From Peptococcaceae bacterium BRH_c8a (GTDB taxonomy: Bacteria; Bacillota; Desulfotomaculia; Desulfotomaculales; Desulfallaceae): a stretch of 64,000 nucleotides of DNA. The notes under the pieces were generated by a model. It worked only from the letters and a program-made list of their open reading frames with translations. It was not told where the DNA came from and ran no database searches. The stretch's first letter is position 1, and the number at the start of each line of letters is the position of its first letter. Below are positions 12,136 to 53,343 of the stretch, piece by piece. The translations under genes were made by a program, and so were the position numbers. The DNA lies in assembly GCA_000961575.1 (NCBI GenBank), contig LADP01000046.1:186001-250000 (forward strand), read 5' to 3'.

Positions 12136-13779
12136 ATGTTAACCATCCGTGACGCCTTAACTTTATCGTCCCTGGGCTCCGCCAAGGTGGCTGCTGGCTC
12201 CCGGGGCCTGGATCGAGAGATTGCCTGGTTTCATGTCATCGATATTCCGCAGATTATTCCCTGGATTAAAAGGGGCCATTTCCTACTTACGGCCACATAC
12301 TCTTTCTTTATGGTTCCCGAAACTACGAAAGGGCTAATTAAAAGTTTAAATGACAAGGGTGTTGTAGGCATAATCATGGCGCTGGGTCTTTACCTCAAGG
12401 ACGTGCCTGGACACATGATTGACGACGCTAATGAACTGGGCTTTCCAATCATAACCGTTACGGCCGATAATCACTTGGAAGATATAACCAGACAATTAGC
12501 TGAACATATTTTAAATGGCAGTGAGGGGTTTTCCAAATACGATACTTGGTTTCACAAAATTGTAGAGGCAACTGCACAGGATGAATCATTAGGTAAATTA
12601 ACCAGAATTGCATCAGAAGTAACTGAAGCCAGTGTTCTGCTGCTGGATAACTATGGCCGGGCTTTAATGGCCGACGATTTATTTAAACACCTTGATATGG
12701 ATGGTTTTTTCAAGCATTTTAGGGAAAAAGAGCAAAACAGAAGTCTTAATCATACTGGGCTGCCTCAAGAAGGCGCTTATAAAAATAGAACCTACTTCTA
12801 TTACCAAATTAAGGGGCAAAATGCAGAAGATATCGCATTTTTATTGATTCTTGATAATATTAACCGCATAGAGTTTTTTAAGTTAATCCTACTGCAGAAT
12901 ATCATTGTAGCGATGTCGGTTTTAATAACCGGGAAAGAATTGCATAATACTATTCTATCCTCTCATATTCCCCTGTTTGAGGATATCCTCTATGGCCGTT
13001 ACGTATCAAGAGAGAGTGCTCAACATAAAGCCGCTAACATGGGGTGGAATGTTAATGCCAATCATGTAGTAGTGATCATTGAACCTGAGAATTACTGTCA
13101 GTATATAGTTGAACACCAGTTAACCGAAAGCCAAATCTTAAAGCTGCAAAATAAGATTACGGCTAAAATTTCCGAGCAAATCAGTGCTATGCAGGGCAAG
13201 TACCCGGTAAGCAAGCAGGACTCACACTTTATCACTATATTTGAATTAACTAAAAAGCTTAGCTTGAAGAAACTGGCCGGTAAGCTCGAGGAACTGGTCG
13301 ACAATTTTTCAAATGATTTAAGCATCCATTTGCTGGTTGGAATAAGCTCTATTGTAAATGACCTCTCTTATTTTTCTACCCGTATAAATGAAGCCCAGGA
13401 ATGCTTAAAAATTATCAAAGAGCTAAAGAATACCAGGGTAGCAAAATATGACGAGCTCAGTATGGAACTTGTCCTTTATAAAGTAATCCAGAATAGCGAG
13501 ATTAAGCATATCTATATTAAAAAGATACAAAAAATAATTGATAATGATCTAGAATTCAATTCCAACCTCATGCCCACCTTAAATGCTTATGTTAATAATC
13601 AGGCCAATTTGGCATTAACGGCGCGCTACTTGAGCGTGCATCGGCACACAGTTAAAAATCGCATTAATAAAATCGGCGAATTATTGGAGATGGATATTTG
13701 TACCACGGGCGCATTAGTAACTTTAACCTTTTTGTTAAAAATTAATGAACACACCGGGCATGATAAACAAGAGTACTAG
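12136..13779 (+). CDS. PucR-family transcriptional regulator
   Basis: 547 residues: an N-terminal PucR domain (about 1-125, IRDALTLSSLG through RGHFLLTATYSF), a central GAF-like and GGDEF-like linker, and a C-terminal helix-turn-helix (about 480-540, ARYLSVHRHTVKNRINKIGELL). PucR proteins usually activate catabolic genes in response to a substrate. This one follows the CoA-transferase/carrier/crotonase genes on the same strand after 84 bases and is probably their regulator. Its stop overlaps by 4 bases, tail to tail, the stop of the minus-strand BY-kinase gene, with no terminator visible between. Confidence 0.88.
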   Translation: MLTIRDALTLSSLGSAKVAAGSRGLDREIAWFHVIDIPQIIPWIKRGHFLLTATYSFFMVPETTKGLIKSLNDKGVVGIIMALGLYLKDVPGHMIDDANELGFPIITVTADNHLEDITRQLAEHILNGSEGFSKYDTWFHKIVEATAQDESLGKLTRIASEVTEASVLLLDNYGRALMADDLFKHLDMDGFFKHFREKEQNRSLNHTGLPQEGAYKNRTYFYYQIKGQNAEDIAFLLILDNINRIEFFKLILLQNIIVAMSVLITGKELHNTILSSHIPLFEDILYGRYVSRESAQHKAANMGWNVNANHVVVIIEPENYCQYIVEHQLTESQILKLQNKITAKISEQISAMQGKYPVSKQDSHFITIFELTKKLSLKKLAGKLEELVDNFSNDLSIHLLVGISSIVNDLSYFSTRINEAQECLKIIKELKNTRVAKYDELSMELVLYKVIQNSEIKHIYIKKIQKIIDNDLEFNSNLMPTLNAYVNNQANLALTARYLSVHRHTVKNRINKIGELLEMDICTTGALVTLTFLLKINEHTGHDKQEY

Positions 13780-15287
13780 TTTTTATCACTGGCGGCGGCG
13801 GCTTCTTGGGCTGGTTTATTGGTCAGCGCGTAATCTTTGTAATAGTCACCCAAGAACCGTTCGTAATTTTGGGATTGATAGAAAGCACCGAGTTGATTGT
13901 ACTTTATGCCGTTTAAGATGCAGCCGATGATGCGGACGCCGGCGTTCTCAAAAGCGGCTTGGGCTGAATTAATCACGTCCACTTTGGCACAACCCTGTTT
14001 AACCACCAGAATTACCCCGTCGGCATAAACCGATAACGCCACCGCGTCGGTGAGCAAATATGAAGGCGGCGTATCCAAGATAATGTAGTCGTATTGTTTT
14101 TCCAGCGCGGCCAGCAAGGCGGCCATTTTTTCGGAGCCCAGCAGTTCAGACGGGTTGGGCACGATGTACCCGTTGGGCATTACATAAATGCCCTGCTCGG
14201 CAGCAAATACTATACCTTCCTCAGCTGCACAAGCCCCGTTCAATACCGCAGCCAGTCCCTGATGATCTTCTAAATCTAATTCCAACACCCCGTGCATATT
14301 AGACTTGCGCAGATCGCAATCCACCAAAAGCACCGACTTGCCGGTGCGGGCAATGGTAATGGCTAAATTTACTGCCACCGTGGACTTGCCTTCCCCGGTC
14401 AAGATGCTGGTCACCAGCAGTTTTTTAGCGCTGGTGACCGCCGAGGCAAACCGCAGGTTAGTCCCGGCTGCTTTGTAAGATTCCACAAATCCAAACCCCA
14501 CCTGATCCGAAGTCACCAAGGGCGCACCCTGACCCTGACCCTGACCCTGACTCTGACCCTGACCCTTCCTGGCCTTGGGGCTAAGATACGGGATACTGCC
14601 CAGCAAAGTGAGGCCAAGTTTATTCTTTACATCATCACCGCTCTTAATGGTGCGGTCAAAAAACATCAGCATAAACACAATGCCCAGGCCCAGCATCAAG
14701 CCAAGCACCGCTCCTACGCCTACATTCCGGAAAGTGGCCGGCGCATTAGGAAACTCGGGTACTTTTGCGTTGTCCAGAACATTGATAGAACCGACTTCTA
14801 CGGTGCTGGAAATAGCTGTCGGCGCCACATGCATAATGGAATTGCATATTTTTGCCGCCAGTAGAGGGTCGGGATTACTTACAAATATCCTCAGCACCTC
14901 AGTATCTCTTACCGGCGCCACCGAAACATAGGGACTAATGGCCGAGGCCGGCAGATCCAGCTCTCCAGCCACCAACTCCATGACCCGGTTACTAGTCAAT
15001 ACTGCGGTATAGGTATTAACCAGTTTGGCCGATAGATTAACATCATTGGTTAATACCGCCTCCTGCCCCACTATCTTAAGCTGCTTGGAATTGACCACCA
15101 TGCTGGCCGACGCGGTATATACCGGCACGTAGGTAGAGATAGTGTAAAAATATGCCCCCAGGGCGGCTAAAACAGTGCACAGGACCACCAGCCACCACCA
15201 CTTAAACAGCGCAGAAATTATTTCCCCAAGGCTAATTTCATTTTCTTCTGTTCTGTCGACCCCGTTATTGAGTCCCTGGTGTTCCAT
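13776..15287 (-). CDS. Wzz-domain protein fused to BY-kinase
   Basis: 503 residues. The N-terminal Wzz domain has transmembrane helices near 30-50 and 185-205 with an external region between. A basic linker carries a Gly-Gln repeat, followed by a BY-kinase domain with Walker A TGEGKST (Lys301), an LLVDCDLRK segment and YIILDTPP. A Tyr cluster near the C-terminus (460-485) is the usual autophosphorylation site. Such proteins set polysaccharide chain length or control export. This gene is last in the peptide-maturation operon, far from the main exopolysaccharide locus, which is unusual. Its start overlaps the end of the ABC gene by 70 bases and has a GGGGGG site just upstream. Confidence 0.85.
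   Translation of the reverse strand: MEHQGLNNGVDRTEENEISLGEIISALFKWWWLVVLCTVLAALGAYFYTISTYVPVYTASASMVVNSKQLKIVGQEAVLTNDVNLSAKLVNTYTAVLTSNRVMELVAGELDLPASAISPYVSVAPVRDTEVLRIFVSNPDPLLAAKICNSIMHVAPTAISSTVEVGSINVLDNAKVPEFPNAPATFRNVGVGAVLGLMLGLGIVFMLMFFDRTIKSGDDVKNKLGLTLLGSIPYLSPKARKGQGQSQGQGQGQGAPLVTSDQVGFGFVESYKAAGTNLRFASAVTSAKKLLVTSILTGEGKSTVAVNLAITIARTGKSVLLVDCDLRKSNMHGVLELDLEDHQGLAAVLNGACAAEEGIVFAAEQGIYVMPNGYIVPNPSELLGSEKMAALLAALEKQYDYIILDTPPSYLLTDAVALSVYADGVILVVKQGCAKVDVINSAQAAFENAGVRIIGCILNGIKYNQLGAFYQSQNYERFLGDYYKDYALTNKPAQEAAAASDKN
14527..14565. repeat. Hexanucleotide repeat encoding Gly-Gln linker
   Basis: About six tandem CCCTGA units (one variant CTCTGA) in the + strand encode alternating Gly-Gln in the linker before the kinase domain. 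The repeat keeps the reading frame and could vary in number between strains. Confidence 0.8.
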
Positions 15288-16975
15288 ACACTAGCCCCCC
15301 TTTTAACTTCGACTAGGCCGCCGTCCCTAATTTGCAAAACCCGGTCACAATACTCTAAAGCCATCGGCCGGTGGGTAACAATAATACAAGTCCGGCCCAG
15401 GCTGCTAATCGCCTGCAGCACCTTGGCCTCGGTCTCGGCATCCAGCGCCGAGGTAGCCTCATCAAGCAGCAGTATGGGCGCCCGGCGCAGCAAAGCCCGG
15501 GCAATGGCCAGCCTTTGCACCTGTCCTTCGGACAAACCCAGCCCATGCTCGCCAATCACCGTGCCCAATTGCTCGGGTAATGCGGATATAAAATCCCAGG
15601 CCCGAGCCATAACGGCGCAATACACTATTTCAGCCGGGGTTGCCTCCGGACAGCCCATTTTCAAATTTTCCTCAATGGTACCGGTAAATAATATGTTCCT
15701 TTGCGGCACATAGGAAATATATCTTCTGGCGTCGGCAGACGCTTTAACCCCCTCGCCACTGCCAGCCGTAAACAGCACTTCCCCTTGGGACGGCGTGATT
15801 AAGGCTAGTAATAACCTCATCAAAGTTGTTTTCCCTGCTCCCGACGCGCCGGTAATGGCCACTATTTCCCCGGCCCTTACTTCCATGGAAAGCTTGTCCA
15901 GTATATTAGCATCGGCATGATAGCCAAAAGTGATATCTTGTAAAGTTAAACCAACTGCCAAACTGCTGCTATGCTTGAGATCGCCGTCGTCGGCACATTT
16001 TTCTTCCAGGGGCAGCCCCTCAAGTTCCATTAACCGGCCAGCCGACGCCATAGCCGAATAAGTCCGGGGCAGTAACCGCGCCAGGCCCAAAAACGGCCCC
16101 TGCACCTGCCCCACCAACTGTAGAAAAACAGCCATCGTGCCAAAAGTAATCATCCCGGTGGACAGCCGGTATGAACCCCAGGTGAGCGCAAGAAAATAAC
16201 CCAGCCAAAAACCCAGTGACAACCCGGCCCCCGCAGCCATCCCCAACCAGTTGCGCTTCATCACCCACATCAAGTGCTGCGACTGCAGCTCTTTAAACCT
16301 CCCTGAACAAGTATCGCCCAGGTTAAAGGACTTAACCACCAGCATATTCTGCAGCACTTCCTGCAAAAAAGAACGGGTTTTACTTTCACTTTCCTGGCAG
16401 CGCACCTGAATCTGTTTAATCCGGCGCCCGTACAGCCGGCCAAAGATTATCAGCACCGGGCCAAGGATAAAGGCCAGGGCCGCCATCACCGGATCAAAAT
16501 GATACAACACCAGAAAAGCAGCCAGCATCTGCACGCCCAGCGTCACGCCTTGCGGCACCAGGCCCGTTATAGCGTTGGCCACACTTGATATGTCGCTGGT
16601 CAGGCGGGCCACCACATCACCACTGTGGTATTTGGAAAAGGGCATCCATTCTGTTCCAACCAATCGACCAAATAAATCGCCTCTAAGGCGGTTACCCGTT
16701 TGTTCCAAAACCCTGGCGCTTACCATTGTATAGGCCGACTGCAGGGCTATCTGGATGATAATGATTAGCCCCATCACCACACCGGTATGCAAAAAATTTC
16801 CCTGCGCCGCACCGGTGGCAGTGTCAATAAGGTTACGCGAGGCCAGGGCAAAACCAACGCCGCAAAGAGACAGCATGCCGCCGCCAATAACTAAAAAGAG
16901 TAATGGAGGAAGAAATAACCGGGCATACCCGGCCATCCAGTATATCTCGGCACTAAATTTTTTCAAATAAGCCAT
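15218..16975 (-). CDS. ABC exporter, fused membrane and ATPase domains
   Basis: 585 residues: about six membrane helices (1-320) and an ATPase domain (340-560) with Walker A GASGAGKTT, signature LSEGQ, Walker B ILLLDEATSALD and an H-loop IIVTHRP. This half-transporter would work as a dimer. It has no C39 peptidase domain, so any leader cleavage must be done by another protein, such as the S26 peptidase encoded directly upstream. The last 20-25 residues overlap the next gene and look like a run-on extension. Peptide export is inferred from the operon. Confidence 0.85.
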   Translation of the reverse strand: MAYLKKFSAEIYWMAGYARLFLPPLLFLVIGGGMLSLCGVGFALASRNLIDTATGAAQGNFLHTGVVMGLIIIIQIALQSAYTMVSARVLEQTGNRLRGDLFGRLVGTEWMPFSKYHSGDVVARLTSDISSVANAITGLVPQGVTLGVQMLAAFLVLYHFDPVMAALAFILGPVLIIFGRLYGRRIKQIQVRCQESESKTRSFLQEVLQNMLVVKSFNLGDTCSGRFKELQSQHLMWVMKRNWLGMAAGAGLSLGFWLGYFLALTWGSYRLSTGMITFGTMAVFLQLVGQVQGPFLGLARLLPRTYSAMASAGRLMELEGLPLEEKCADDGDLKHSSSLAVGLTLQDITFGYHADANILDKLSMEVRAGEIVAITGASGAGKTTLMRLLLALITPSQGEVLFTAGSGEGVKASADARRYISYVPQRNILFTGTIEENLKMGCPEATPAEIVYCAVMARAWDFISALPEQLGTVIGEHGLGLSEGQVQRLAIARALLRRAPILLLDEATSALDAETEAKVLQAISSLGRTCIIVTHRPMALEYCDRVLQIRDGGLVEVKRGASVWNTRDSITGSTEQKKMKLALGK

Positions 16976-16976
16976 C

Positions 16977-17438
16977 CTATCTCAGCCACCGGTAAAAAGA
17001 AAGTATGTAACCCCTAACAGGCAGAGCCAAACCCCATAGGGCCGAAAGTGCCCTCCACCACAATCCGCGGCAATCAATATGCCTGTCCCGGCGCCAAACC
17101 GAGGTCACCACCGCAATTACCTGCTCCAGAAGCAGCGGGCCCTCAATTTGCTGCTGGGCATCTCCATTTAAATAAAAGCACTGCCGTTTATGCTTAATAA
17201 CCCGATGCAGCACATACTGGCCGTTATCCCGCATAACCAGCACAATGCTGCCGCGTTTTAAGGCCGTTGGCTCTACCGCGGCAAGTATTACGCTGTCCAC
17301 ACCCTGGCGCAGAAAGGGATACATGCTGCTGCCGGTAACGGTCAGCCGCACCCGGCCCCCGCCGGCAATTATTTCGCCAATGGCCGGCATCAGCGCACTG
17401 CTTTTAACTCTTCTAATATCAGAAATTATTTCACACAT
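16977..17438 (-). CDS. Small S24/S26-type signal peptidase-like protein
   Basis: 153 residues with the serine motif TGSSMYPFL near residue 37 and a GDxVLV-like strand (GSIVLVMRDNGQYVLHRVI) as in S26 peptidases. The Lys/His following it (HRVIKHKR) could supply the base. A hydrophobic segment lies at the C-terminus. It overlaps the HprK-like gene by 13 bases and ends 2 bases before the ABC start. In this context it may cleave the peptide leader. S24/S26 proteins of this size recur beside HprK-like genes in peptide clusters. Confidence 0.7.
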   Translation of the reverse strand: MCEIISDIRRVKSSALMPAIGEIIAGGGRVRLTVTGSSMYPFLRQGVDSVILAAVEPTALKRGSIVLVMRDNGQYVLHRVIKHKRQCFYLNGDAQQQIEGPLLLEQVIAVVTSVWRRDRHIDCRGLWWRALSALWGLALPVRGYILSFYRWLR

Positions 17439-18271
17439 TGGCGCACCAGCTCGAAGGCTTCTTTATCCGGGCGGCATTTTAAAAGATAAACAGGCACCCG
17501 CTCAATAACAGCGCCGATGTTATCCAACGCCCGGGCCATTAAATGCTCGTCAAAAAAGGGCAGAAAGCAACGCGGCACTAGCCGCTGCACTGCCTCGGTC
17601 GATGATAACAGTTTAATTTCATTTTGCGGGGCCTGTTCCAGCATCACAATCGCCTGCAGTGGAACCCGGCGATTCATCGATTCATTTGATGACCCGCACC
17701 AGGGCGTCCCGTAAAGCTCCACCTGGTTTTCATGTACCCGTAAAGCCGGGCGGTCACCGTTAATGATATCCGCCCCCGCATACTGCTGCCATAAATGGGC
17801 GTGGGTGCTCTTCCCGGTTCCGGATGGTGCTGAAAAGACAATACCTTGTTCAAGATAATCGATTGCGGCGGCATGTATAACGATGCCCTGGTGAAAAAGC
17901 AGCGCTGTCCTGAAAATAACTTCCCCGGCACCGCTGAAAAAAGGCATTTTCTGCCGCTCTGAACTACGCACAAAGATTCTGTTCCAGTCCGGAGAAGTTT
18001 GTATTAGGTGGGTAATACGCCCGGTGGAATCATATAAGCTAACTGTATAACCAATATCTGTTTTAAAACCTACTACTTCATCATAATGCGCTTCAACCAG
18101 TTCATCATTAATCGATGAGTCCACCTCAAAAACAGCATGAACGGATGAAGTACCAGGCAAGCCGTCATTCCCGGCGTATAAAAAGGTAGCATCATCCGCA
18201 GCCCAAAAACCCGACGAGTAATGAATGTCAAACAGTGCATCTGCTATTAAATACCTTTTTTTATAAATCAT
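17426..18271 (-). CDS. HprK-like P-loop kinase of peptide clusters
   Basis: 281 residues. The C-terminal half carries a P-loop (SAPSGTGKSTHAHLW, near residue 152), an INGDRPAL segment and a TPW motif typical of HPr-kinase-like proteins in Firmicute peptide clusters. Related kinases phosphorylate a residue of lasso peptides such as paeninodin; other members have no known role. It lacks the full HPr kinase N-terminal domain. It lies directly downstream of the small two-Cys peptide gene and may phosphorylate that peptide. This target is inferred. Confidence 0.75.
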   Translation of the reverse strand: MIYKKRYLIADALFDIHYSSGFWAADDATFLYAGNDGLPGTSSVHAVFEVDSSINDELVEAHYDEVVGFKTDIGYTVSLYDSTGRITHLIQTSPDWNRIFVRSSERQKMPFFSGAGEVIFRTALLFHQGIVIHAAAIDYLEQGIVFSAPSGTGKSTHAHLWQQYAGADIINGDRPALRVHENQVELYGTPWCGSSNESMNRRVPLQAIVMLEQAPQNEIKLLSSTEAVQRLVPRCFLPFFDEHLMARALDNIGAVIERVPVYLLKCRPDKEAFELVRQCVK

Positions 18272-18313
18272 TTTTACTCGCTATCCCAATATTTTGTAGA
18301 ACTTACCCAATAT

Positions 18314-18469
18314 TTAAGCTGAATAACCTGTGGCATTTTTGTACATGTGTAAATCAGTACAACGTGGCGGTTCCTTAGCTCCATTATAAACTGGATCACA
18401 GGTCGCTAATCTTTCTTCCGGTTGGAGTTGCATCATCTCTACTGTGGGTTTTGTATATATCTTTTTCAT
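18314..18469 (-). CDS. 51-residue candidate RiPP precursor peptide
   Basis: A short ORF beginning ATG 18469 behind GGAGG (18478-18482). The N-terminal part has a leader-like pattern: MKKIYTKP, then MMQLQPEERLATC. The C-terminal part contains the second Cys (Cys24 and Cys37), two Pro (34-35), three Tyr and a GYSA end. A Lys-Pro start followed by LxPEERLAxC is typical of small peptides next to PqqD-like/SPASM radical SAM pairs. It sits between the radical SAM gene (22 bases away) and the kinase gene, in the same operon. Cys24 or Cys37 could be a thioether donor. I do not recognise the product class. Confidence 0.72.
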   Translation of the reverse strand: MKKIYTKPTVEMMQLQPEERLATCDPVYNGAKEPPRCTDLHMYKNATGYSA

Positions 18470-18490
18470 CCAAAATAACCTCCAATAATT

Positions 18491-19543
18491 TTATAGATTA
18501 ATGTTTCGCATCATTCGTTCTTTTTCTTTAGCAAGCAGGCATACATACTCACTGTGGCCATCAAACTTGCCTGTTTCCAGGTAAAGTCTCCCCGGACACA
18601 CCGGGCAAAAGGCCCTCAACTCACAACCCTTGCAATTTTCAAGGCCTGGGATTTGCGTAACTTGATGGCGCAGCAAATCCCATGCTTGCTTAAAACCCAC
18701 ATCCAGCGGTACGGTATAAGGCTTTTCAAATAAATTACAAGGCACTAACCGGCCCAGCCAATTAATGAAAAAACTGCATTTCCCCGCCAAGCAGAACATA
18801 GCAGGTGAATCTTTATATTGTCCTTTAATATTTTCCAGGTCAATAGGCGAACAAACACCCTGTTCCAGATTGGCCAGGTCGAAGCTATAAATTTCCCCGG
18901 GCGAAAGCCGCTCATCATTAATATTTTTAATACCGGTGATCCGGTTGCCGTGAATTAAATTACTAGGTAAAAACTCCAGGCCGTAGGACAGGGCAATAGT
19001 TTGAACAGCCTGGTAATCATGAACATTGGATCGGACTACAGTAGTTTTAATTCTAGTGGTAATATTGTTTTTTAAGAGCAGTTCCAAACCACCCATAGCT
19101 TTATGAAAAGCCTCACCGCTGCCGCATAAATTTCTGTAAGTCGTTTCGCTGGCTCCATATAAGGTGATATCTACAGCAGCCGGCGGTATCTGGGACAGCC
19201 ACTTAGCTAATTCCTCATTAATTAAGGTTCCATTGGTAAAAAGGGTCAGGCGTAAACCCAAGCGGCAAAAAGCCTCATATATTTCTTTAAAATCATCCCG
19301 GATTAGCGGCTCTCCACCCGTCAAAAAAACCGCTAAGGCACCGCCATCCCGGGCAGCGCGGCCAAGCTCCACCCACTGATTGGCAGTTAATTCATGATTT
19401 GATTTTCCGGCTCCCGCGCCTTTTACATAACACATCCGGCAGCTCAGGTTGCACCTGGTAGTAAGCTCAAAACCGCCATATACCGGAATACCTTTTTCGA
19501 ATGCTGCTTTTTGCAAGCTCTGATGAAATTCCTTCAAGCTCAT
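18491..19543 (-). CDS. Radical SAM enzyme with SPASM domain
   Basis: 350 residues. The radical SAM cluster motif CNLSCRMC is at Cys31, Cys35 and Cys38, followed by LTGGEPLIRDDF. The C-terminal SPASM region contains CLAGKC, PCNLF, CKGCELRAFCPVC and a final VC, enough for two auxiliary FeS clusters. Such enzymes build C-S or C-C crosslinks in peptides (AlbA, PqqE, QhpD families). It overlaps the PqqD-like gene by 4 bases, and the candidate peptide gene is immediately downstream. Confidence 0.88.
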   Translation of the reverse strand: MSLKEFHQSLQKAAFEKGIPVYGGFELTTRCNLSCRMCYVKGAGAGKSNHELTANQWVELGRAARDGGALAVFLTGGEPLIRDDFKEIYEAFCRLGLRLTLFTNGTLINEELAKWLSQIPPAAVDITLYGASETTYRNLCGSGEAFHKAMGGLELLLKNNITTRIKTTVVRSNVHDYQAVQTIALSYGLEFLPSNLIHGNRITGIKNINDERLSPGEIYSFDLANLEQGVCSPIDLENIKGQYKDSPAMFCLAGKCSFFINWLGRLVPCNLFEKPYTVPLDVGFKQAWDLLRHQVTQIPGLENCKGCELRAFCPVCPGRLYLETGKFDGHSEYVCLLAKEKERMMRNINL

Positions 19544-19806
19544 AGCTCCAACAGAGCACCTTCCTCCAGTGCAGATGTAAATTCAACGACATCGGCCCGG
19601 GCAGTGGTTTCGTCAACATCATATTCAAGCAACAGCTGATTAACTAATTCATCAACGCCCGCGCCTTTTTCTAATATCTCCCACAGAAAGGCACCCGTTT
19701 CGCTAAGCGTTATGATACCGTTAAAATCAACAACTCTTTCACCCAGAGGAACAACCAGCCATGAGCCGGCTATTTCTCTTAGCATAAAATTTTGCTTTAT
19801 TTTCAT
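19540..19806 (-). CDS. PqqD-like peptide-binding protein
   Basis: 88 residues, the usual length. It has the PqqD pattern: an N-terminal beta region (ending WLVVPLGE), FNGIITLSETGAFLWEIL and an acidic helical C-terminus (LLLEYDVDETTARADVVEF). PqqD-like RRE domains bind the leader of the precursor and deliver it to the radical SAM enzyme. First gene of the operon, with GGAGG just upstream. Confidence 0.85.
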   Translation of the reverse strand: MKIKQNFMLREIAGSWLVVPLGERVVDFNGIITLSETGAFLWEILEKGAGVDELVNQLLLEYDVDETTARADVVEFTSALEEGALLEL

Positions 19807-19829
19807 CTAACCAACCTCCGCCATCCCCT

Positions 19830-19859
19830 AAAAACAAAAATACCGACCACATGGCCGGT
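19830..19859 (-). terminator. Attenuator hairpin before the peptide operon
   Basis: Reading the minus strand, ACCGGCC pairs with GGTCGGT around ATGT (19842-19859), followed by ATTTTTGTTTTT. It lies only 24-53 bases before the PqqD-like start, with a second hairpin (ACGCT/AGCGT) just upstream. A terminator in this place suggests conditional read-through. Confidence 0.5.
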
Positions 19860-20341
19860 TACGCTACTAGCTCCTCCAAGGTATAAGCGTCCAATTAAAC
19901 CCTGGATTCATAGCTTCCTAATTCATATAATATCGATCTCTGGTATAATTTACAAAGATTAATATGCAACATAGTACCTTATAATTTAACATTTAATGTA
20001 ACCTTTTATTGCTTTTAGGGGGGTACAAGCATGCTATTTGGTGTAAAAAGGGAAATGTTGGCTAAAATTTGAAATCTTTTTACAGAGCCAGACAAGGGGA
20101 CAGGGACTTGTCTTGTGGGAACAAGACAAGTCCCTGTCCCCTTGTCTGTTGTTAACGCGGTGAAGGTCAGTCCCGGTCACTAAAAATGTAACTTTATGTA
20201 TTAATTATTCTTTTTACAAGTAACCAATGCGACACTGTTCTGGTCTTGTACAAGCTATAATTTAAATACCCTAAATTAAACAAAGGAGGTACATTTTGGT
20301 TTTATATTGATAGGGTAAAAATTTTATGGGAGGCTAGGACT
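19860..20341. other. Divergent intergenic region
   Basis: It separates the minus-strand peptide operon from the M14 peptidase gene. It holds a palindrome of family A (20090-20148) and a TATAAT-like box near 20256 for the plus strand. An AAAGGAGGTACA sequence near 20282 is followed by TTG and a stop after a few codons, perhaps a tiny leader ORF. No further gene was seen. Confidence 0.4.
20090..20148. repeat. Palindromic repeat, family A copy 1
   Basis: Two 25-base arms (GACAAGGGGACAGGGACTTG and onward) are perfect complements around a short loop. The same sequence, with small changes, recurs at 21719-21783 and 23114-23175. Confidence 0.85.
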
Positions 20342-21649
20342 ATGAAAAGGTTTAAAACTATCCTGGTTTTAAGTATCATTGTTTCCTTTTCACTACTTTG
20401 TACATCTGCTTTTGCTGCTCCCCAATCCAACCCTAATGGCCCCTGGGTAGAAGACAATCAAAATGTTTCCCTTTCCAGCGTAATGACTAATGCTGAACTG
20501 TATAAAACACTAGAAAAACTCGAAGCTGTATCAAAAGGAAAAATGGAGTTAGAGTTAGTTGGTTATTCTGATGCATTAAACGGCGATTTGATGGAAGAGC
20601 TTGGATACCCGCTCTATTTGTGTAAGTTAGGAAACCCCGACGCTGATAAAAAGATGCTCATTACAACTCAAATACACGGTAATGAAGTCATTGGTACTGA
20701 AGCTATTGTGGAACTGATGCAAAAGTTTGCATCCGGTGATAAAGAGGCTAATGAGATACTTGATAACGTATGTATTTGGATTATGCCGAGAATTAATCCT
20801 GATGGGGCGATGTACCAAAGAGATGGACAATGGTACCCCGTAAGGCAATGTGTACAAGCTTGGGATCCCGAGAGCATTGATTTATCCGAAACTACAAAGG
20901 CTCCATGGTATTACAATAGTAACGTGCCTGGTTATGATGAAAACAGGGATTATAATCCCAACCTTGATTTTAGAATAGATGATTTTGACAGTGATGAAGT
21001 TGAAAACTTCTTAAATGACACCAGTTATTGGTACACTGATAGCGACGGACAAAGGCAACGTTATGTCGGCCAAAACTCCGATATAAACGGAGGCTTTTAT
21101 GTAACCCCTGAAGCCCGTATAGTAACAAGCGTATTTCAACGTTTAGATCCCGATGTTTACATTGACGTCCACCACAGGGGATTTAATACTGTATCGGACG
21201 AAGACAATCGCTCCGTTTCAATCCAGGTGGCAGCAGTTGTCGCTGACCCGTACACCGATCCCTGGACTGGTGATGCATATGAAGTAGACGCGGATGTTCT
21301 AACGCTTGGCAAGCAAATAAATGCTCTGGGCTGGCTGTCGTTACAAAGAGGTTTCTCTTCTTTTGGTGCCATTCAAAAATACCCTGACGTTAACCTCCCC
21401 GGGACCTCATTAGGTGCCTTTGCCTTAAACGATACAGCGATTATGCTTATCGAAATTAAAGGTCAAACCCAAAACCTTGGTCAAAAGCAAAACGGGATGT
21501 TAAAGCAAACCGTCTCAACGCCGATTTACGAAATTCTCAAAGCTTTATCAGATGGTTCAATACACGACGTTGATGAAAGCATTTACAATGATATCCCTGA
21601 ATCAGATAACCGTATAAGTGACCCAACAACTAGGGATGATATTCTTTAG
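20342..21649 (+). CDS. Secreted M14-family zinc carboxypeptidase
   Basis: 435 residues with a signal peptide (1-25, cleavage near AFA-AP). Zinc ligands can be assigned as His112 and Glu115 (QIHGNE) and His277 or His278 (DVHHRG), with catalytic Glu371 (IEIKGQ). This is the M14 pattern. It should remove C-terminal residues or cleave peptidoglycan-type substrates outside the cell. ATG 20342 follows GGGAGG. It is a single gene flanked by family A palindromes and has no sorting signal at its C-terminus. Confidence 0.85.
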   Translation: MKRFKTILVLSIIVSFSLLCTSAFAAPQSNPNGPWVEDNQNVSLSSVMTNAELYKTLEKLEAVSKGKMELELVGYSDALNGDLMEELGYPLYLCKLGNPDADKKMLITTQIHGNEVIGTEAIVELMQKFASGDKEANEILDNVCIWIMPRINPDGAMYQRDGQWYPVRQCVQAWDPESIDLSETTKAPWYYNSNVPGYDENRDYNPNLDFRIDDFDSDEVENFLNDTSYWYTDSDGQRQRYVGQNSDINGGFYVTPEARIVTSVFQRLDPDVYIDVHHRGFNTVSDEDNRSVSIQVAAVVADPYTDPWTGDAYEVDADVLTLGKQINALGWLSLQRGFSSFGAIQKYPDVNLPGTSLGAFALNDTAIMLIEIKGQTQNLGQKQNGMLKQTVSTPIYEILKALSDGSIHDVDESIYNDIPESDNRISDPTTRDDIL

Positions 21650-21718: not shown

Positions 21719-21783
21719 AACAGACAGGGGGACAGGGACCTGTCTTGCTCCCACAAGACAAGTCCCTGTCCCCCTGTCTGTTT
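21719..21783. repeat. Palindromic repeat, family A copy 2
   Basis: AACAGACAGGGGGACAGGGAC and its complement flank a loop of about 10 bases. One arm carries CC where copies 1 and 3 have CT. It could also terminate transcription of the peptidase gene. Confidence 0.85.
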
Positions 21784-23113: not shown

Positions 23114-23175
23114 GCAGACAGGGGGACAGGGACTTGTCTTGCTCCCACAAGACAAGTCCCTGTCCCCCTGTCTGC
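23114..23175. repeat. Palindromic repeat, family A copy 3
   Basis: A perfect inverted repeat, GCAGACAGGGGGACAGGGAC and onward, with a CTCCCA-type loop. Its right end touches the surviving part of a hicB-like gene. Confidence 0.85.
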
Positions 23176-29296: not shown

Positions 29297-29450
29297 TTGG
29301 CACTTTTGGATTCTATAGTGGACAAGCGCGAAGTTTAGTGCAAAATGAAATATATTGGTTAAAAAAAGCAAATTTGTCAAAGGCGAAAGGAGTTTATGAT
29401 AAAATATTAAATTAGAACGGCAAATGCGATGGCCTTGGGGGTTTATTGGT

Positions 29451-30668
29451 ATGAAACAGGATAAAATTTTAGAACCCTTTGAGCAAATTTCCCCTGAGCT
29501 TTGGCTGATGCTAGCCAGCGCCGGCGGCGATATTAATAAAGCACAAAATTTACTGCAACAGCCGATTAACTGGGATTGGTTATTGCAACTTACAGTCCAC
29601 CACCGGGTGTTTCCATTGGTTTATAAAACACTGAGCCAATTAAATAACCCTACTATACCCAAACATGTCCTTGACCTTTTGCAACAGAAATGTTGGAAGA
29701 ATGCCATACTTGCCGTAAACATGGCCCAAGAAACAACCCGGATAACACAATGCCTGGAAAGCCACGGCATCCTTGCAATTGTTTTAAAGGGAGCCCCCCT
29801 GGCCTGGCGTTTGTATGGTGATATAACCATAAGGCCATCAAGTGATATCGATATTATAGTTCCGTTTGATGAACTTGAAAAGGCTATTGGCGTATTGGAA
29901 AGTGAAGGTTATACGGAAGCAAAGAACTTAGATTTGACATCGAGCCAATTAAAAATTTATTTAAAAACTATTAGAAGGAACAGACATAATATGCCCTTTA
30001 GACATAATAAGACAAATATTTATTTAGAGCTTCACTGGAAGTTTGGTTATGGTGGTTTCCATTCACTTTTTAAACCAACAGAAAATATCGTTAGAAATAT
30101 TGAGCTGGAGGAAAATTTTATACCAGTGCTCCCTGATGAGGAATGGCTGTTTTATTTAATGTTTCATGGGGCTAAGCATGGATGGACTTATCTGCGCTGG
30201 CTGGTGGATATTGCAAAATTCACCCAACAGAAAGGTATAGACTGGAATAAGATATCTCTTTTAGCAAGCAATTATGGTTTAGAGCCTGTTTTACACCAGT
30301 CTTTATTCTTAGCCAACCGGCTGTTGGCGACACCTATTCCACCCATTGTATCATCCCAAGTTAATAATGACCGAGCTGCATGGCGGTTGGCCTGCGCTGC
30401 GATGGACCTGTGCCTAAGCACTGCGGATTATGAAATTATGGGGAAAGATAAACATCGGTTAAATTACATTCGCAATAATTACTTTACTCTGCTTTGGCCC
30501 GGGTGGAAGATCAGGAACAAGTTTGAACCTTTTAACCCTACTATATATGAAATCAAATTTATATCATTACCAAACAGGTTATATGCATTGTATTATTTTA
30601 TTAGACCCTGCTATTGGGTCTGGCGGCGTTTGCGACGTAAACATAAAAAAAGTAGGACAAATGCCTAA
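29451..30668 (+). CDS. Nucleotidyltransferase-fold protein (NTP_transf_5 type)
   Basis: 405 residues from ATG 29451, with GGGGG upstream. The nucleotidyltransferase core reads VLKGAPLAWRLYGDITIRPSSDIDI: a GSxxxx-like strand followed by the metal-binding SDIDI. This PF14907-like group is found in capsule loci and in Firmicute lasso- and related peptide clusters next to HprK-like and PqqD-like genes. Substrate unknown. It stands alone between the phage block and the exopolysaccharide locus, so it could belong with either the peptide operon or the polysaccharide. Confidence 0.7.
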   Translation: MKQDKILEPFEQISPELWLMLASAGGDINKAQNLLQQPINWDWLLQLTVHHRVFPLVYKTLSQLNNPTIPKHVLDLLQQKCWKNAILAVNMAQETTRITQCLESHGILAIVLKGAPLAWRLYGDITIRPSSDIDIIVPFDELEKAIGVLESEGYTEAKNLDLTSSQLKIYLKTIRRNRHNMPFRHNKTNIYLELHWKFGYGGFHSLFKPTENIVRNIELEENFIPVLPDEEWLFYLMFHGAKHGWTYLRWLVDIAKFTQQKGIDWNKISLLASNYGLEPVLHQSLFLANRLLATPIPPIVSSQVNNDRAAWRLACAAMDLCLSTADYEIMGKDKHRLNYIRNNYFTLLWPGWKIRNKFEPFNPTIYEIKFISLPNRLYALYYFIRPCYWVWRRLRRKHKKSRTNA

Positions 30669-36571: not shown

Positions 36572-38200
36572 CTAGGATAGCATCATTCTCTTTTCCACAT
36601 GATTAATATAATCTATGACAAGGGGGGAATTAATATTGGCATATTCTCGTGCGTGTAATAAATATTCGTCTAAATTATAAATGCCCCACCACGCGAGCGG
36701 ATTACTATTATACTCCTTAACCAATGCCCGTTTATTAGATTTTCCTATGTTAATAATCCTTCTTTTTATTACTGGGCTTAAATAAGGACTAATCATGTGT
36801 TTTAACCATTGTTTAGTATTTAGTGGTGTGTCATCTAAACGCATTCCTGTTATCTTATTAAACAAATCATTAACAAAATGCATGTATAAAAATTGATTTA
36901 TTCTAAATGCTAATGCTACTTTTGACCAAAATTGCATATATTCGTAATCCCAAAACGGCATCCACCAATCATAACCCCAAAATTCATATACTCTTAAGGA
37001 GTTAACAATGAATTTCGCTTGCCGCTCGGATGTATCCCACGATTCAAAAGCACTTGCGCAATCAGGAAACTCTTCCAAATTTCCAAGGGTTCGTTTTATC
37101 CTATCCCTATAAAGCAGTTCTTGCTCTTCTTTACTCTTCATCCATTTAAACAATGAATAATGATACTTAAGAATTCCATTATTTACTTTCATAACGTCAA
37201 CATTTTGGTTATTATACAATTCTGGTACATAGGCGCTTCTACTCCCCGCAGGCAAATCAGCTGAATGCCCAGGAGCAAAGATTGAATCTTTTGGAATCCT
37301 TTTGTTTATATTTAATTGCCATACCGCAGGCCAGTCTTGAATATGTGGTAAAGAAGTACTCCCACCAGCAAAACATGCATATTTTTTATATTCCGCAGAA
37401 AGGTACCATTGATGCCATAAATCGTTTCTGTATTCAATAAATTCCCATTTAAACCCTAAAATTTTGGCAATCTTCTTGCTTATAACTGATTCTTTATTAC
37501 CAACTCTCCCATAGGAAAAGGTTATTATGTTTTTATAACCTAGTCTTTTTAACATCAAAACAATCAGCCTCGAATCGCATCCGCCACTTAACGGAACAAT
37601 TATGGTTCTACCATTGGCTACTTGTATTAGTCGCTTAAAGACACGCACAACCACTTGATCATGTTCTTCCATTAGTTGTTCCATACTTTTTTCCTGATCA
37701 TATTTGTGAACATAACTGTAATAGCGATTAGGGTTCACTGACAATCCCTGCTCGGTCTCCTTAACAATTATGGCTTCACCAGCTTGTAGTTGCTTAACGT
37801 CAGGGAAAAGTGTGTCTGAACCGGTTACGTATCCAGTAAGAAGAAACTCTTCTTTCGCTAGTGCATCCAATTCACGGTTATCTACCTGCTGTCTAATCCA
37901 TTCTGTGCTATCACTTAGATAAAAATCATCTCCTTTGCGACCGTAGAAAAGCGGAATGCTTCGCAACCGGTCTACTGCCGCAAGAAGTTGTTCATCCTTG
38001 TTAATGATAAGGGCGTAAAAACCGTTCAGTTTTTGAATACCATCAAAAAAATTTTGTTCTGTATGCCAAGCCGAGACTAATTGATGTAATTCTTCGCCAC
38101 AGCAAAGTCTGTCATGGTAGAATGCTTTTCCTGTCGTAACACAATTAGGTGACTCAATATAAGTTCGATACCTATGATGCTGAATAGATACGTAAATCAT
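36572..38200 (-). CDS. Asparagine synthetase-like amidotransferase
   Basis: 542 residues: an N-terminal glutaminase-like domain (KLNGFYALIINKDEQLLAAVDRLRSIPLFYG, quoted in parts) and a C-terminal PP-loop domain with SGGCDSRL (about residue 208). The first residues are MIYVS, so the catalytic Cys2 of true AsnB is missing. Glutaminase activity is therefore unlikely and ammonia or another amine would be used. Homologues in polysaccharide loci may amidate a uronic acid. This fits the uronic-acid pathway here but is inference. Confidence 0.75.
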   Translation of the reverse strand: MIYVSIQHHRYRTYIESPNCVTTGKAFYHDRLCCGEELHQLVSAWHTEQNFFDGIQKLNGFYALIINKDEQLLAAVDRLRSIPLFYGRKGDDFYLSDSTEWIRQQVDNRELDALAKEEFLLTGYVTGSDTLFPDVKQLQAGEAIIVKETEQGLSVNPNRYYSYVHKYDQEKSMEQLMEEHDQVVVRVFKRLIQVANGRTIIVPLSGGCDSRLIVLMLKRLGYKNIITFSYGRVGNKESVISKKIAKILGFKWEFIEYRNDLWHQWYLSAEYKKYACFAGGSTSLPHIQDWPAVWQLNINKRIPKDSIFAPGHSADLPAGSRSAYVPELYNNQNVDVMKVNNGILKYHYSLFKWMKSKEEQELLYRDRIKRTLGNLEEFPDCASAFESWDTSERQAKFIVNSLRVYEFWGYDWWMPFWDYEYMQFWSKVALAFRINQFLYMHFVNDLFNKITGMRLDDTPLNTKQWLKHMISPYLSPVIKRRIINIGKSNKRALVKEYNSNPLAWWGIYNLDEYLLHAREYANINSPLVIDYINHVEKRMMLS

Positions 38201-50678: not shown

Positions 50679-52517
50679 CTAAACTGCTTCCACTTTATTC
50701 CGATAGCTTTTAAATTGCGGCAATATAGCTGCCAGGGTGTCAAATACGTCGTCTGCTTCAACCTGGGTGGTATTACGGGCCAGCAGTAGCAGCTGTTTAT
50801 CCAGGGCGGATACTTCAGCCAGGCAGGGTCTGGCGACAAAGATTCTTTTATGGTTGGTGGCAGTCGAGCCTTCTTCGGCGGTTAACAGCTCTTCAAAGAG
50901 TTTTTCACCGGGCCTGACGCCGGTAAACTTTATTTTGATGTCGTGGTCGGGCTCCAGGCCGGACAGTTTAATCATGTCTCGGGCTAGATCTACTATTTTT
51001 ACCGGTTCGCCCATGTCCAGGATAAATATTTCGCCGCCGCCCGCCATCGCACCGGTCTGGATGACCAGCTGTACCGCTTCGGGGATGGTCATAAAGTAGC
51101 GTTTCATGTCCGGATGGGTCACCGTTACCGGGCCGCCTTTTTTTATTTGCGATTCGAAGATGGGCACCACACTGCCCCGGCTGCCCAGCACGTTGCCGAA
51201 CCGCACCGCCGCAAACCTGGTGTTGCTGTTACGATCCATGTTTTGCACCACCAATTCTGACAGCCGCTTGGTGGCGCCCATTACGCTGGACGGGTTGACG
51301 GCTTTATCGGTGGAGATGCTGACAAATATTTTGGTGCCCGTCCGGTCGGCGGCTTCCATCAGGTTTTGGGTACCAAAGACGTTTGTCTTGACCGCTTCGT
51401 CGGGGTGAAACTCCATTAAGGGCACATGCTTATGGGCGGCGGCGTGGAATACCACCCCCGGGCGGTATGCTTGCCAAATGGCATCTATTTTAGCTTTGTC
51501 CCTGATGTCGGCTATTTCAATACCCAGTGGTAAACCCGGAAACCTAGCCTCTAACTCCAGCCAAATTTTGTGGATGCTGTTCTCGCCGTGGCCCAGCAAC
51601 ACCAGCTTTTGGGGGGCAAAGCCCGCCACCTGGCGACAGAGCTCGGAACCGATGGAGCCGCCCGCCCCAGTGACCAGCACGGTTTCGCCTTTGAGGTAAC
51701 CGGCAATCTCATCCAGATCCACCTTTACCGGCTCGCGCTGCAGTAGGTCTTCTATGGCCACGGGGCGCAGGCTGTTGACGGAAACCCGGCCGTTAAGAAT
51801 TTGATAAACTCCAGGCAGTATTTTAACGTCTAAATTGGTTTGGCTGCAGATAGTGAATATTTCTTTAATGGCCTCGGCACCGGCCGAGGGCATAGCGATA
51901 ATGATGTTTTGAATGTTGTAACGTTTGACCACACTTAATATCCGCTCCCGGGTGCCCAGTATTGGTAAGCTAAGCACACTGAACTTTTGTTTATTTTTGT
52001 CGTCATCGATAAACCCCACGGGCAGCAGGCCGCTGTCGTGGTTTTTTAGTTCCCTGGCCACCATGACCCCGGCATCACCGGCGCCGATGATGAGGGTGCG
52101 CTTGCCGTGCCGGCCGTTGCCTTTTTTGCGATCCAGCATTACCCGCCACACCAGCCGGGAGCCCCCCACCGTCAGCACAATAAACGCCCAGGAGGATATT
52201 ACAATGCTGCGGGGCAGCAGCGATTCCATCATGTAGGTCATGGCTATAACAGCCAGACTGCCCAGCGACACCGACTGCACGATGGCAAACAGCTCACCGG
52301 TGCTGGCATAGGCCCACACCCGGTTGTATAGTTTCAGGCAGTAAAAACAAAACAAGTGGATGGTGATGACAATGGGGGAAATAAAGAAATAATCCTGCAG
52401 GTAAGGGCTGGCTGAAGTAAAACCTTCAAAACGCAACAGGTAGGCTATGATTATGGATACGTTAATTAATACGGCATCGCTGGCTATTAAAAGTATTAAT
52501 CTGATATACCCGTTCAT
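50679..52517 (-). CDS. PglF/EpsC-like UDP-GlcNAc 4,6-dehydratase
   Basis: 612 residues from ATG 52517 (AAAGAGG upstream; a longer start is possible). Four membrane helices (1-120), a CoA-binding-like Rossmann domain (IIGAGDAGVMVARELKN) and the SDR domain from about 275 (TGAGGSIGSELCRQV; STDKAVNPSSVMGATKRL). The usual Tyr of YxxxK is replaced by Met, as in PglF-type enzymes. It makes UDP-4-keto-6-deoxy-GlcNAc for the PglE-like enzyme at 46386. Confidence 0.88.
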   Translation of the reverse strand: MNGYIRLILLIASDAVLINVSIIIAYLLRFEGFTSASPYLQDYFFISPIVITIHLFCFYCLKLYNRVWAYASTGELFAIVQSVSLGSLAVIAMTYMMESLLPRSIVISSWAFIVLTVGGSRLVWRVMLDRKKGNGRHGKRTLIIGAGDAGVMVARELKNHDSGLLPVGFIDDDKNKQKFSVLSLPILGTRERILSVVKRYNIQNIIIAMPSAGAEAIKEIFTICSQTNLDVKILPGVYQILNGRVSVNSLRPVAIEDLLQREPVKVDLDEIAGYLKGETVLVTGAGGSIGSELCRQVAGFAPQKLVLLGHGENSIHKIWLELEARFPGLPLGIEIADIRDKAKIDAIWQAYRPGVVFHAAAHKHVPLMEFHPDEAVKTNVFGTQNLMEAADRTGTKIFVSISTDKAVNPSSVMGATKRLSELVVQNMDRNSNTRFAAVRFGNVLGSRGSVVPIFESQIKKGGPVTVTHPDMKRYFMTIPEAVQLVIQTGAMAGGGEIFILDMGEPVKIVDLARDMIKLSGLEPDHDIKIKFTGVRPGEKLFEELLTAEEGSTATNHKRIFVARPCLAEVSALDKQLLLLARNTTQVEADDVFDTLAAILPQFKSYRNKVEAV

Positions 52518-53167: not shown

Positions 53168-53248
53168 ATAAAAAAACCTCCTTGGTGTGGTGTAGTGTAT
53201 TAGTGCCAATCATACCTTAGGAGATTTCCAAGTAAGGCACGATCCTTT

Positions 53249-53332: not shown

Positions 53333-53343
53333 GTTCATGTCAC

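Follow-up and report, generated by a model that had tools for sequence, protein, structure and literature searches.

What does an operon make that joins peptide-modifying enzymes to a bacterial tyrosine kinase (BY-kinase), and which signal turns it on? The question is raised by seven minus-strand open reading frames (ORFs) in a stretch of 64,000 nucleotides (nt) from Peptococcaceae bacterium BRH_c8a (contig LADP01000046.1, positions 186,001-250,000; hereafter the window). Since the ORFs meet at junctions of -4, +21, +42, -13, +1 and -70 nt, they were read as one operon. The preliminary description of this DNA had listed seven minus-strand genes with overlaps of 4, 13 and 70 nt and gaps of up to 42 nt, and all of these were found again. 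The operon is a cluster of the RiPP type (ribosomally synthesized and post-translationally modified peptide). The best explanation of it, and in our judgment a reasonably probable one, is that the operon is switched on by cyclic di-GMP (c-di-GMP) and that its peptide is crosslinked, phosphorylated, exported and coupled to polysaccharide. c-di-GMP is the signal by which bacteria commit to surface-attached life.

A class II c-di-GMP (c-di-GMP-II) riboswitch was identified at the operon by covariance model and by covariation (Table 1). The preliminary description had reported an attenuator at this place. The terminator part of that claim stands, but the leader is a riboswitch that had been overlooked and that reaches 68 nt past the end given there; the Rfam match to the aptamer rules out a plain attenuator. 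Sixteen of the 18 nucleotides of the terminator lie inside the aptamer, and the 5' arm of the terminator is the conserved ACCGGCC. The aptamer and terminator folds are therefore mutually exclusive. Judging from this geometry and from the riboswitch class, the ligand should favor read-through, as expected of an ON switch. In Clostridioides difficile all four class II riboswitches are ON switches (PMC6200980).

The pseudoknot of the operon aptamer (ACGCU/AGCGU) is intact. Six c-di-GMP-II sites were found in the BRH_c8a genome at E ≤ 0.001, of which two exceed the RF01786 cut-off. All five pairs of the pseudoknot are formed at every one of the six sites, and three pairs have changed on both sides. 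The covariation score over the six sites (P2 and pseudoknot) was 0.55, as compared with 0.198 in shuffles. In the six-site alignment 93.1% of the cells were paired (74.0% when shuffled) and eight pairs showed changes on both sides (3.7 when shuffled). None of 500 shuffles reached the observed pairing or the observed both-side changes, and slid registers fell to 26-43%. In total, 16 class I (c-di-GMP-I) and six c-di-GMP-II matches were found in 4.17 Mb. By simple arithmetic, about 0.0008 sites would be expected by chance in the 300 nt that precede any one operon on the correct strand.

Direct Pfam or NCBIfam support was obtained for the PqqD-like protein, the radical S-adenosylmethionine (SAM) enzyme, the ABC exporter and the Wzz/BY-kinase, whose names in the preliminary description are upheld by scores over the cut-offs. 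The HprK-like and S26-like proteins passed none of the curated Pfam or NCBIfam cut-offs, and no listed NCBIfam model was over its cut-off for the enzyme, the precursor, the HprK-like kinase or the PqqD-like protein, a RiPP recognition element (RRE). The latter is 43-53% identical to its counterparts in four syntenic relatives. In 25 sequences of the radical SAM enzyme, the window's included, C31, C35 and C38 of the radical SAM core and seven SPASM cysteines (C251, C269, C304, C307, C313, C316 and C335) were invariant. A model built from the 25 sequences (predicted local distance difference test score, pLDDT, 89.1) came closest to SkfB (Z 24.8), SuiB (24.0), CteB (22.6), anSME (21.9), ChlB (21.3) and PqqE (21.1), all of which act on peptides or proteins. 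Membership of the enzyme in a known non-peptide family, which had been named beforehand as an observation that would speak against peptide maturation, was not found: none of the 25 NCBIfam models listed (71 matched) exceeded its cut-off, and the nearest structures were SkfB, SuiB and CteB. Of the features by which a radical SAM/SPASM RiPP cluster is recognized, a precursor gene conserved beside the maturase and the presence of an RRE and a SPASM enzyme were observed.

Relatives were collected from GTDB genomes, which were scanned with two short patterns and an alignment of five enzymes; the best 80 loci of 274 relatives were kept, and members may be missed. The enzyme tree comprised 77 of 84 loci. 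L083, L091 and L096-L100 were left out (enzyme shorter than 300 residues or weaker than 1e-40). The tree also omits L018, which duplicates L027, and L013-L016, which are contained in L017-L020. Genes lost at contig ends were counted as absent. A profile made from twelve precursor leaders was run against 10,406 small ORFs; 18 matched at E<1e-3, the twelve seeds among them. All 18 are located at most 4.3 kb from the enzyme gene, 17 of them on its strand. The motif Y-x-[KSEQRT]-P was present in 32 of 311 small ORFs near the enzyme on the same strand, in 6 of 328 near it on the opposite strand and in 18 of 2,023 farther away, counts that include at least one spurious ORF (L059, 711 nt away). Among the loci with PqqD-like, HprK-like and S26-like genes within 6.5 kb, such an ORF occurs on the enzyme strand within 3 kb in 26 of 30, and a YxKP-type ORF is missing in L046, L053, L070 and L086. 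The absence of the small ORF from otherwise conserved neighborhoods, against which the preliminary description had asked its peptide-maturation reading to be checked, is thus not what we observed, and the reading itself is borne out by conserved synteny, by the leader and by the fixed register of cysteines in the relatives.

In the window peptide the cysteines (C24 and C37) stand 19 and 32 residues after the leader Tyr. A cysteine 18-22 residues after this Tyr was found in 26 of 29 peptides with the Y-x-[KSEQRT]-P motif encoded within 900 nt of the enzyme, the exceptions being two in L020 (25 and 26 residues) and one in L030 (none). When the interval was widened to 14-27 residues the count was 28 of 29, as against a mean of 15.8 and a maximum of 23 in shuffled sequences; two or more cysteines are present in 28 of the 29. 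Cysteines held in register with the leader amid variable cores would be the expected trace of a leader-guided crosslinking enzyme. RREs of the PqqD group bind W/Y/LxxP/L/I motifs (PMC12710340), a pattern to which the YxKP leader conforms. The window peptide matched no NCBIfam family at E ≤ 0.01; the precursor model of SCIFF/ranthipeptides does not match it, and it has two cysteines only.

Some relatives carry further peptides. In L025 (8272-8710) and L030 (9130-9629) there are extra precursor-like peptides, some without cysteine (ending FWLRILRK or FWLKILRK) and others with His-Pro-rich tails; those of L025 adjoin a second HprK-like gene. In a gut-clostridial branch (L033-L036, L038, L039, L042, L047 and L052) the precursors are longer and end in CYHT or CFHT followed by a short tail, mostly with a final Ser, and the gene order is different, the kinase preceding the enzyme.

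The preliminary description had pointed to the Peptococcaceae as the field to be searched. This was misplaced: in the window's order (113 genomes, three congeners included), no relative was found outside the window's own genome at E ≤ 1e-35, and the relatives belong to other Clostridia. Since the order gave no other match, the operon is patchy and probably travels. In the tree of 77 enzymes the window forms a supported clade with L021, an Oscillospiraceae metagenome-assembled genome (MAG) with an enzyme 57% identical, and L022, a Firmicutes MAG (values of the SH-like approximate likelihood ratio test, SH-aLRT, 98 and 99). c-di-GMP riboswitches and a BY-kinase occur throughout this three-member clade. 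The order in L021 is a divergent Wzz/BY-kinase gene, the PqqD-like gene, a c-di-GMP-I riboswitch (73.8 bits, overlapping a terminator by 6 nt and standing 131 nt before the ATG of the radical SAM gene, position 4749), the radical SAM, precursor, kinase and S26-like genes, and the contig end. In L022 one strand carries a c-di-GMP-I riboswitch (84.3 bits, 4.9 kb upstream of the PqqD-like gene), VanZ, a BTAD regulator, the Wzz/BY-kinase (its end weakly matching VanZ), and the PqqD-like, radical SAM, precursor, kinase, NTP_transf_5, S26-like and ABC genes. Two unrelated aptamer classes thus serve homologous operons. Because the two classes are structurally unrelated, c-di-GMP control would seem to be what selection keeps.

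Beyond these three, a c-di-GMP-I site was found in L020 (genome G288), 63 nt upstream of a further precursor gene; this precursor is followed by ORFs that we read as IS21-like, on the opposite strand, and then by a kinase remnant. Window, L020, L021 and L022 are the four of 85 sources that matched the c-di-GMP-I model at E ≤ 0.1, a model built with the L021, L022 and window sites, all three of which also pass Rfam; class I sites are labeled here by riboswitch model, and their ligand may be c-di-GMP or 3',3'-cGAMP (cyclic GMP-AMP). We read the riboswitch trait as confined to a corner of the enzyme family. On a quick tree the four loci with riboswitches do not form a single clade (approximately unbiased, AU, test p 0.0009; the group was named after the tree had been seen), so the association arose more than once or was often lost. 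Whole-genome searches with RF01786 and RF01051, in which part of the first-look candidates were scored in most genomes, gave at least 4 c-di-GMP-I sites in 1.6 Mb for L021, at least 3 in 2.1 Mb for L022 and at least 14 in 2.9 Mb for G288, and c-di-GMP-II sites in at least 3 of the 28 genomes searched whole. As for further close relatives, the query's own genome being counted each time, 1 of 113 genomes of the class matched at E ≤ 1e-60 (the same number of genomes as in the order scan), 1 of 394 drawn from the order of L021 at 1e-75 and 1 of 19 of the order of L022 at 1e-75. A sample of the phylum gave 4 of 398 drawn genomes at 1e-45, the other three outside the clade, and the clade members found number three.

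Other c-di-GMP-I sites were seen around the peptide cluster of G288, which is interrupted by the IS21-like element. By our reading, they lie in tandem before a secreted glycosidase-like gene and singly before a secreted repeat protein (L020, 13745-16054 and 4213-6123).

The HprK-like call of the preliminary description is supported by fold prediction. The AlphaFold2 model of the kinase, made from 28 sequences (mean pLDDT 92.1), has the fold of phosphoenolpyruvate carboxykinase (PEPCK) and HPr kinase, with Z 14.4 and a root-mean-square deviation of 4.3 over 239 residues against PEPCK. All 50 rows of the VIA-align list are PEPCKs; the HPr kinase chains, of Mycoplasma, Staphylococcus and Lactobacillus, come from the Foldseek list (E 2e-6 to 4e-5). 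Across the 28 sequences, that of the window among them, H133, D173 and the P-loop residues G153 and K154 do not vary. The window kinase shares the fold superfamily of true HprK and has no TIGR00679 match at E ≤ 0.01; 5 of the 28 relatives match this model weakly (best E 0.00037). At HprK-bearing loci, 30 of 41 cysteine-bearing precursors end in Ser (18 of 29 with S26, 12 of 12 without), as compared with 261 of 2,555 and 216 of 2,179 background ORFs (about 10%); this count is inflated by related sequences and no significance is claimed for it.

In lasso precursors the Ser at the C-terminus is the target of HprK-like kinases, and the phosphate of pseudomycoidin further receives hexoses from a nucleotidyltransferase (PMC8498205); HPr kinases also occur in lasso clusters of anaerobes (PMC4289311). 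The idea of a phosphorylated peptide gains from the fact that the relatives' precursors mostly end in Ser, those of L021 and L022 included. Of the 77 loci, 22 have an NTP_transf_5-like gene at most 8.6 kb from the enzyme, and in L022 such a gene stands between the kinase and the peptidase. The case for phosphate and sugar is weaker in the window than in the family, because the peptide there has SA at its end and the NTP_transf_5 gene is 10 kb off on the opposite strand. As for the S26 protein, also named in the preliminary description, the catalytic residues S38, H78 and D93 are invariant in 10 S26-like sequences, the window's included, although the model score is below cut-off. SipW-type enzymes use a Ser-His pair. 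No peptidase domain was found among the Pfam matches listed for the ABC exporter. Divergent from the operon lies a gene for an M14 zinc carboxypeptidase with a secreted-looking N-terminus (20342-21649, plus strand), which could trim a C-terminus; an M14 peptidase stands beside the enzyme in 1 of 77 loci, the window itself, and is not a general part.

Table 1. Features of the operon and its leader in the window (positions counted from the first nucleotide of the window)
Feature	Coordinates	Strand	Evidence
c-di-GMP-II riboswitch aptamer (RF01786)	19844..19927	-	54.8 bits vs gathering 53.5
Intrinsic terminator, ACCGGCCATGTGGTCGGT then ATTTTTGTTT	19842..19859	-	-10.6 kcal/mol
PqqD-like RRE protein, 88 aa	19540..19806	-	PF05402 58.3 bits, cut-off 23.4
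SPASM radical SAM peptide maturase, 350 aa	18491..19543	-	PF04055 Radical_SAM 80.5 bits, cut-off 29.5
Precursor peptide, 51 aa, leader MKKIYTKPTVEMMQLQPEERLATC, two Cys	18314..18469	-	Leader profile E 3e-14, itself a seed
HprK/PEPCK-fold kinase, 281 aa	17426..18271	-	AlphaFold2 fold, invariant residues
S26-type (SipW/archaeal-like) serine peptidase, 153 aa	16977..17438	-	TIGR02228 sub-cut-off, invariant residues
ABC exporter, membrane and ATPase domains fused	15218..16975	-	PF00664 ABC_membrane 111 bits, PF00005 ABC_tran 99.3 bits
Fused Wzz/BY-kinase, Tyr-rich C-terminus (tail by eye)	13776..15287	-	PF02706, PF13614, TIGR01007

The last gene of the operon encodes a BY-kinase by its TIGR01007 score (156.2 bits, cut-off 108) and its Wzz domain (PF02706, 55.1 bits, cut-off 25.5); PF13614 scored 60.1 bits, and Wzc is the closest solved structure by sequence. 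Since this gene overlaps the ABC gene by 70 nt, it is probably co-transcribed. The co-occurrence of the BY-kinase with the peptide genes, which had been proposed as a check, was found in part: 15 of 77 loci, as a raw count, have a Wzz/BY-kinase no farther than 6.5 kb from the enzyme, and the other 62 do not. The tree requires at least 8 changes in the presence of the kinase, and the pairing thus recurs. Peptide cluster and BY-kinase are both present in L030, from the cultivable Desulfosporosinus hippei.

The surroundings seem to point to the cell surface. The window contains, by our reading, a polysaccharide cluster at about 30.8-56.5 kb, with a separate kinase (53401-54123) and a Wzz-like gene (54124-55476), both named by reading. 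Inside this cluster, a c-di-GMP-I riboswitch (53246-53334, minus strand, 78.4 bits) lies 692 nt upstream of a Polysacc_synt_2 gene (50679-52553). A riboswitch of the c-di-GMP-II-GAG variant (RF03169; 60515-60599, plus strand, 52.3 bits, cut-off 40), overlapping a terminator by 9 nt, precedes a gene that starts at 60736 and leaves the window, encoding a putative surface protein of at least 1088 residues with beta-helix, Big_2 and Cu_amine_oxidN1 parts. Elsewhere in the genome, one class II match (65.2 bits) stands before the gene of an LPXTG-type repeat protein and another, below cut-off at 49.5 bits, before that of a large protein that looks secreted. The peptide operon thus seems to belong to a regulon of surface structures.

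On contig C44 of the same genome (L007, about 158.4-158.7 kb), a class I and a class II site, on one strand and separated by 165 nt, precede an LPXTG-type protein with Gly/Pro repeats, and a tandem of two more class I sites is present at 160.7-160.9 kb.

From the above we infer the following course of events. Without ligand, the leader would fold into the terminator and transcription would stop. When c-di-GMP is bound, it would hold the aptamer, whose conserved 3' end takes up the 5' arm of the terminator, and read-through should follow, as the geometry and the class suggest. The PqqD-like RRE would bind the YxKP leader and hand the peptide to the SPASM radical SAM enzyme, which would crosslink the core, probably by a thioether, through the cysteine some 20 residues beyond the leader Tyr. 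The HprK-fold kinase may then phosphorylate the C-terminal Ser, terminal in most relatives and penultimate in the window. The S26-type peptidase would cut off the leader, with a predicted site near EERLA|TC, and the ABC protein would export the product. The Wzz/BY-kinase might couple the peptide system to surface polysaccharide, which is the weakest step. The peptide would then be a product of a sessile, surface-building program.

Several observations weigh against this explanation. The aptamer exceeds its cut-off by a small margin of 1.3 bits, its P1 stem is mostly unpaired, and the overall fold of the leader is of ordinary stability (z -0.90). The structure used for covariation was drawn from the same six sequences, which favors it; four of the six sites are under the RF01786 cut-off, and one (60515) scores as the II-GAG variant. 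Among the relatives, 81 of 85 sources have no class I match, 19 of 21 scanned with Rfam have no c-di-GMP riboswitch of either class in the stretch around the enzyme, and the c-di-GMP-II model found only the window's own site, with none around the enzyme of any relative (85 sources). In L022 the terminator does not overlap the aptamer, and since gaps reach 489 nt the riboswitch may not govern the whole set. Class I sites of C. difficile are mostly OFF switches (PMC6200980), and the direction of the switch may therefore differ among the relatives. On the protein side, MoaA (Z 20.8) and viperin (20.6) follow closely behind the peptide maturases, so the fold alone does not settle the substrate of the enzyme. 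The S26-like protein scored 35.7 bits against TIGR02228 (archaeal signal peptidase), whose cut-off is 51.85. The window peptide ends in SA with Ser penultimate, and at loci without HprK a final Ser is found in 1 of 2 cysteine-bearing precursors and in 2 of 9 motif ORFs, numbers too small for a control. L020, L023, L024 and L026 have no BY-kinase within 6.5 kb.

The scarcity of class I matches among the sources (81 of 85 without) and of nearby BY-kinases (62 of 77 loci without) would be readily understood if the operon made an ordinary radical SAM RiPP, for example a narrow-spectrum bacteriocin, and if c-di-GMP control and the BY-kinase were local regulation or co-location of no meaning for the peptide. 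ABC export would also suit a secreted antibiotic. However, all three members of the window's clade have both features, and their riboswitches are of two unrelated classes. In the window the genes for the BY-kinase and the ABC protein share 70 nt, and over the tree the pairing recurs with at least 8 changes. We therefore consider the bacteriocin unlikely, while taking it seriously. That a glycopeptide, phosphorylated at its C-terminal Ser and then glycosylated, primes, caps or anchors an exopolysaccharide of a length set by the Wzz/BY-kinase is suggested by the phosphorylated lasso Ser and the pseudomycoidin hexoses (PMC8498205), by the NTP_transf_5-like genes of 22 of 77 loci and by the C-terminal Ser of 30 of 41 precursors. 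The corresponding gene of the window (29424-30668), however, is 10 kb off on the opposite strand, the peptide ends in SA, and PF14907 would have to be the family of the pseudomycoidin enzyme as well. We know of no precedent for a RiPP as a glycan primer, which also counts against this glycopeptide, and we regard it as quite improbable.

The pair of PqqD-like and SPASM proteins resembles the PQQ and mycofactocin systems (TIGR02109 and TIGR03962, 71.3 bits each), and the small peptide might thus be the precursor of a redox cofactor or carrier, like PqqA and MftA, that is not secreted. These scores are, however, far under the cut-offs of 381 and 265, the cluster has an exporter, and the precursors differ from locus to locus in core and in number (L020, L025 and L030 have several each), unlike a conserved cofactor; such a role is very improbable. 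It would be more improbable still that the enzyme has a non-peptide substrate, for instance in haem or cofactor chemistry, and that the small ORF is incidental. The haem b synthase model matches the enzyme core with 100.1 bits and 23 of 25 relatives at E ≤ 1e-20, but 100 bits is a fifth of the cut-off of 500 and the match covers residues 25-188 only. Moreover, the small ORF is conserved in place and register, and none of the seven genes is a haem gene.

The explanation that we prefer, a RiPP operon switched on by c-di-GMP, has a bolder form, which we hold to be rather unlikely: that the c-di-GMP-gated peptide acts in polysaccharide assembly itself. It would be crosslinked by the radical SAM enzyme, C-terminally phosphorylated and possibly glycosylated by an NTP_transf_5 enzyme, and would then serve as primer, cap or trans-acting switch of its dedicated Wzz/BY-kinase. 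If this were true, second messenger, RiPP and exopolysaccharide would be one circuit in Gram-positive anaerobes.

Comparison with known systems places the operon near several of them. The SynChlorMet cassette (TIGR04249-TIGR04251: ScmC, ScmE and ScmF), whose make-up beyond the model names we take as general background, provides the best named match of both the enzyme (ScmE) and the kinase (ScmC). Membership was rejected, as ScmC (27.1 bits, cut-off 125), ScmE (108.3, cut-off 400) and ScmF (74.6, cut-off 400) are all under cut-off. The window has one radical SAM gene instead of ScmE plus ScmF, and adds the ABC exporter, the S26 peptidase, the BY-kinase and the riboswitch; nothing relevant to the cassette was found in the literature among the matches listed. 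With phosphorylated lasso peptides of the paeninodin type, the family shares a YxxP-type leader with a PqqD-like RRE (B1), an HprK-homologous kinase and the C-terminal Ser of most precursors. Unlike lasso clusters, the window has radical SAM and S26 proteins in place of a lasso cyclase and B2 protease, neither of which is among the seven ORFs, and membership in this class was rejected. The SPASM fold and the cysteine-bearing core resemble the sactipeptide, ranthipeptide and streptide maturases SkfB, CteB and SuiB, but structural alignments gave 16-22% identity, the RRE of the window is a separate PqqD-like protein, and no listed family model was over cut-off. GeoRSP (TIGR04302 26.1 bits, cut-off 100; TIGR04303 59.7, cut-off 400) was rejected, as were SCIFF and haem enzymes, with NCBIfam matches absent or far under cut-off.

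The leader is comparable to the c-di-GMP-II regulons of C. difficile (adhesins, pilA1), with the same aptamer class and terminator platform, and with surface-program genes elsewhere in BRH_c8a; the target in the window, in contrast, is a peptide-modification operon. The BY-kinase shares the Wzz domain, the Walker ATPase and the Tyr-rich tail with Wzc/CapAB tyrosine kinases but, unlike them, belongs to a peptide operon, and the separate kinase of the polysaccharide cluster is 38 kb away. In open-licence PubMed Central literature, among the matches listed, no RiPP operon tied to a c-di-GMP riboswitch was found, nor any description, name or product for the window's peptide family. The operon would thus seem unusual among RiPP clusters for its second-messenger control. 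This control gives the modified-peptide family a physiological state in which its product may be sought and may tie it to biofilm formation. The residues predicted to be modified are the cysteine about 20 residues after the leader Tyr and the C-terminal Ser, and the system offers a test of whether such peptides take part in polysaccharide control by BY-kinases.

Minor observations concern neighboring genes and repeats. An Asn-synthase-like gene of the polysaccharide cluster (36572-38200), about 17 kb off, is barely over the PF00733 cut-off (23.7 vs 21 bits). VanZ genes were found in 2 of 77 loci (L020 and L022) and are not a general part. Upstream of the L013 cluster (369-1141) there are a second PqqD-like ORF and an ORF that we take to resemble a lasso B2 protease, and a lasso cluster may sit beside the peptide cluster of L013. 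Three copies of a near-perfect palindrome, GGGACAGGGACTTGTCTTGT with its inverse, were found in the window (20097-20140, 21729-21772 and 23123-23166), none being expected by chance, and we read this repeat as REP-like or a mobile element. Rfam microRNA and plastid matches at 20079-20155 were discarded, being below cut-off and lying on the repeat hairpin.

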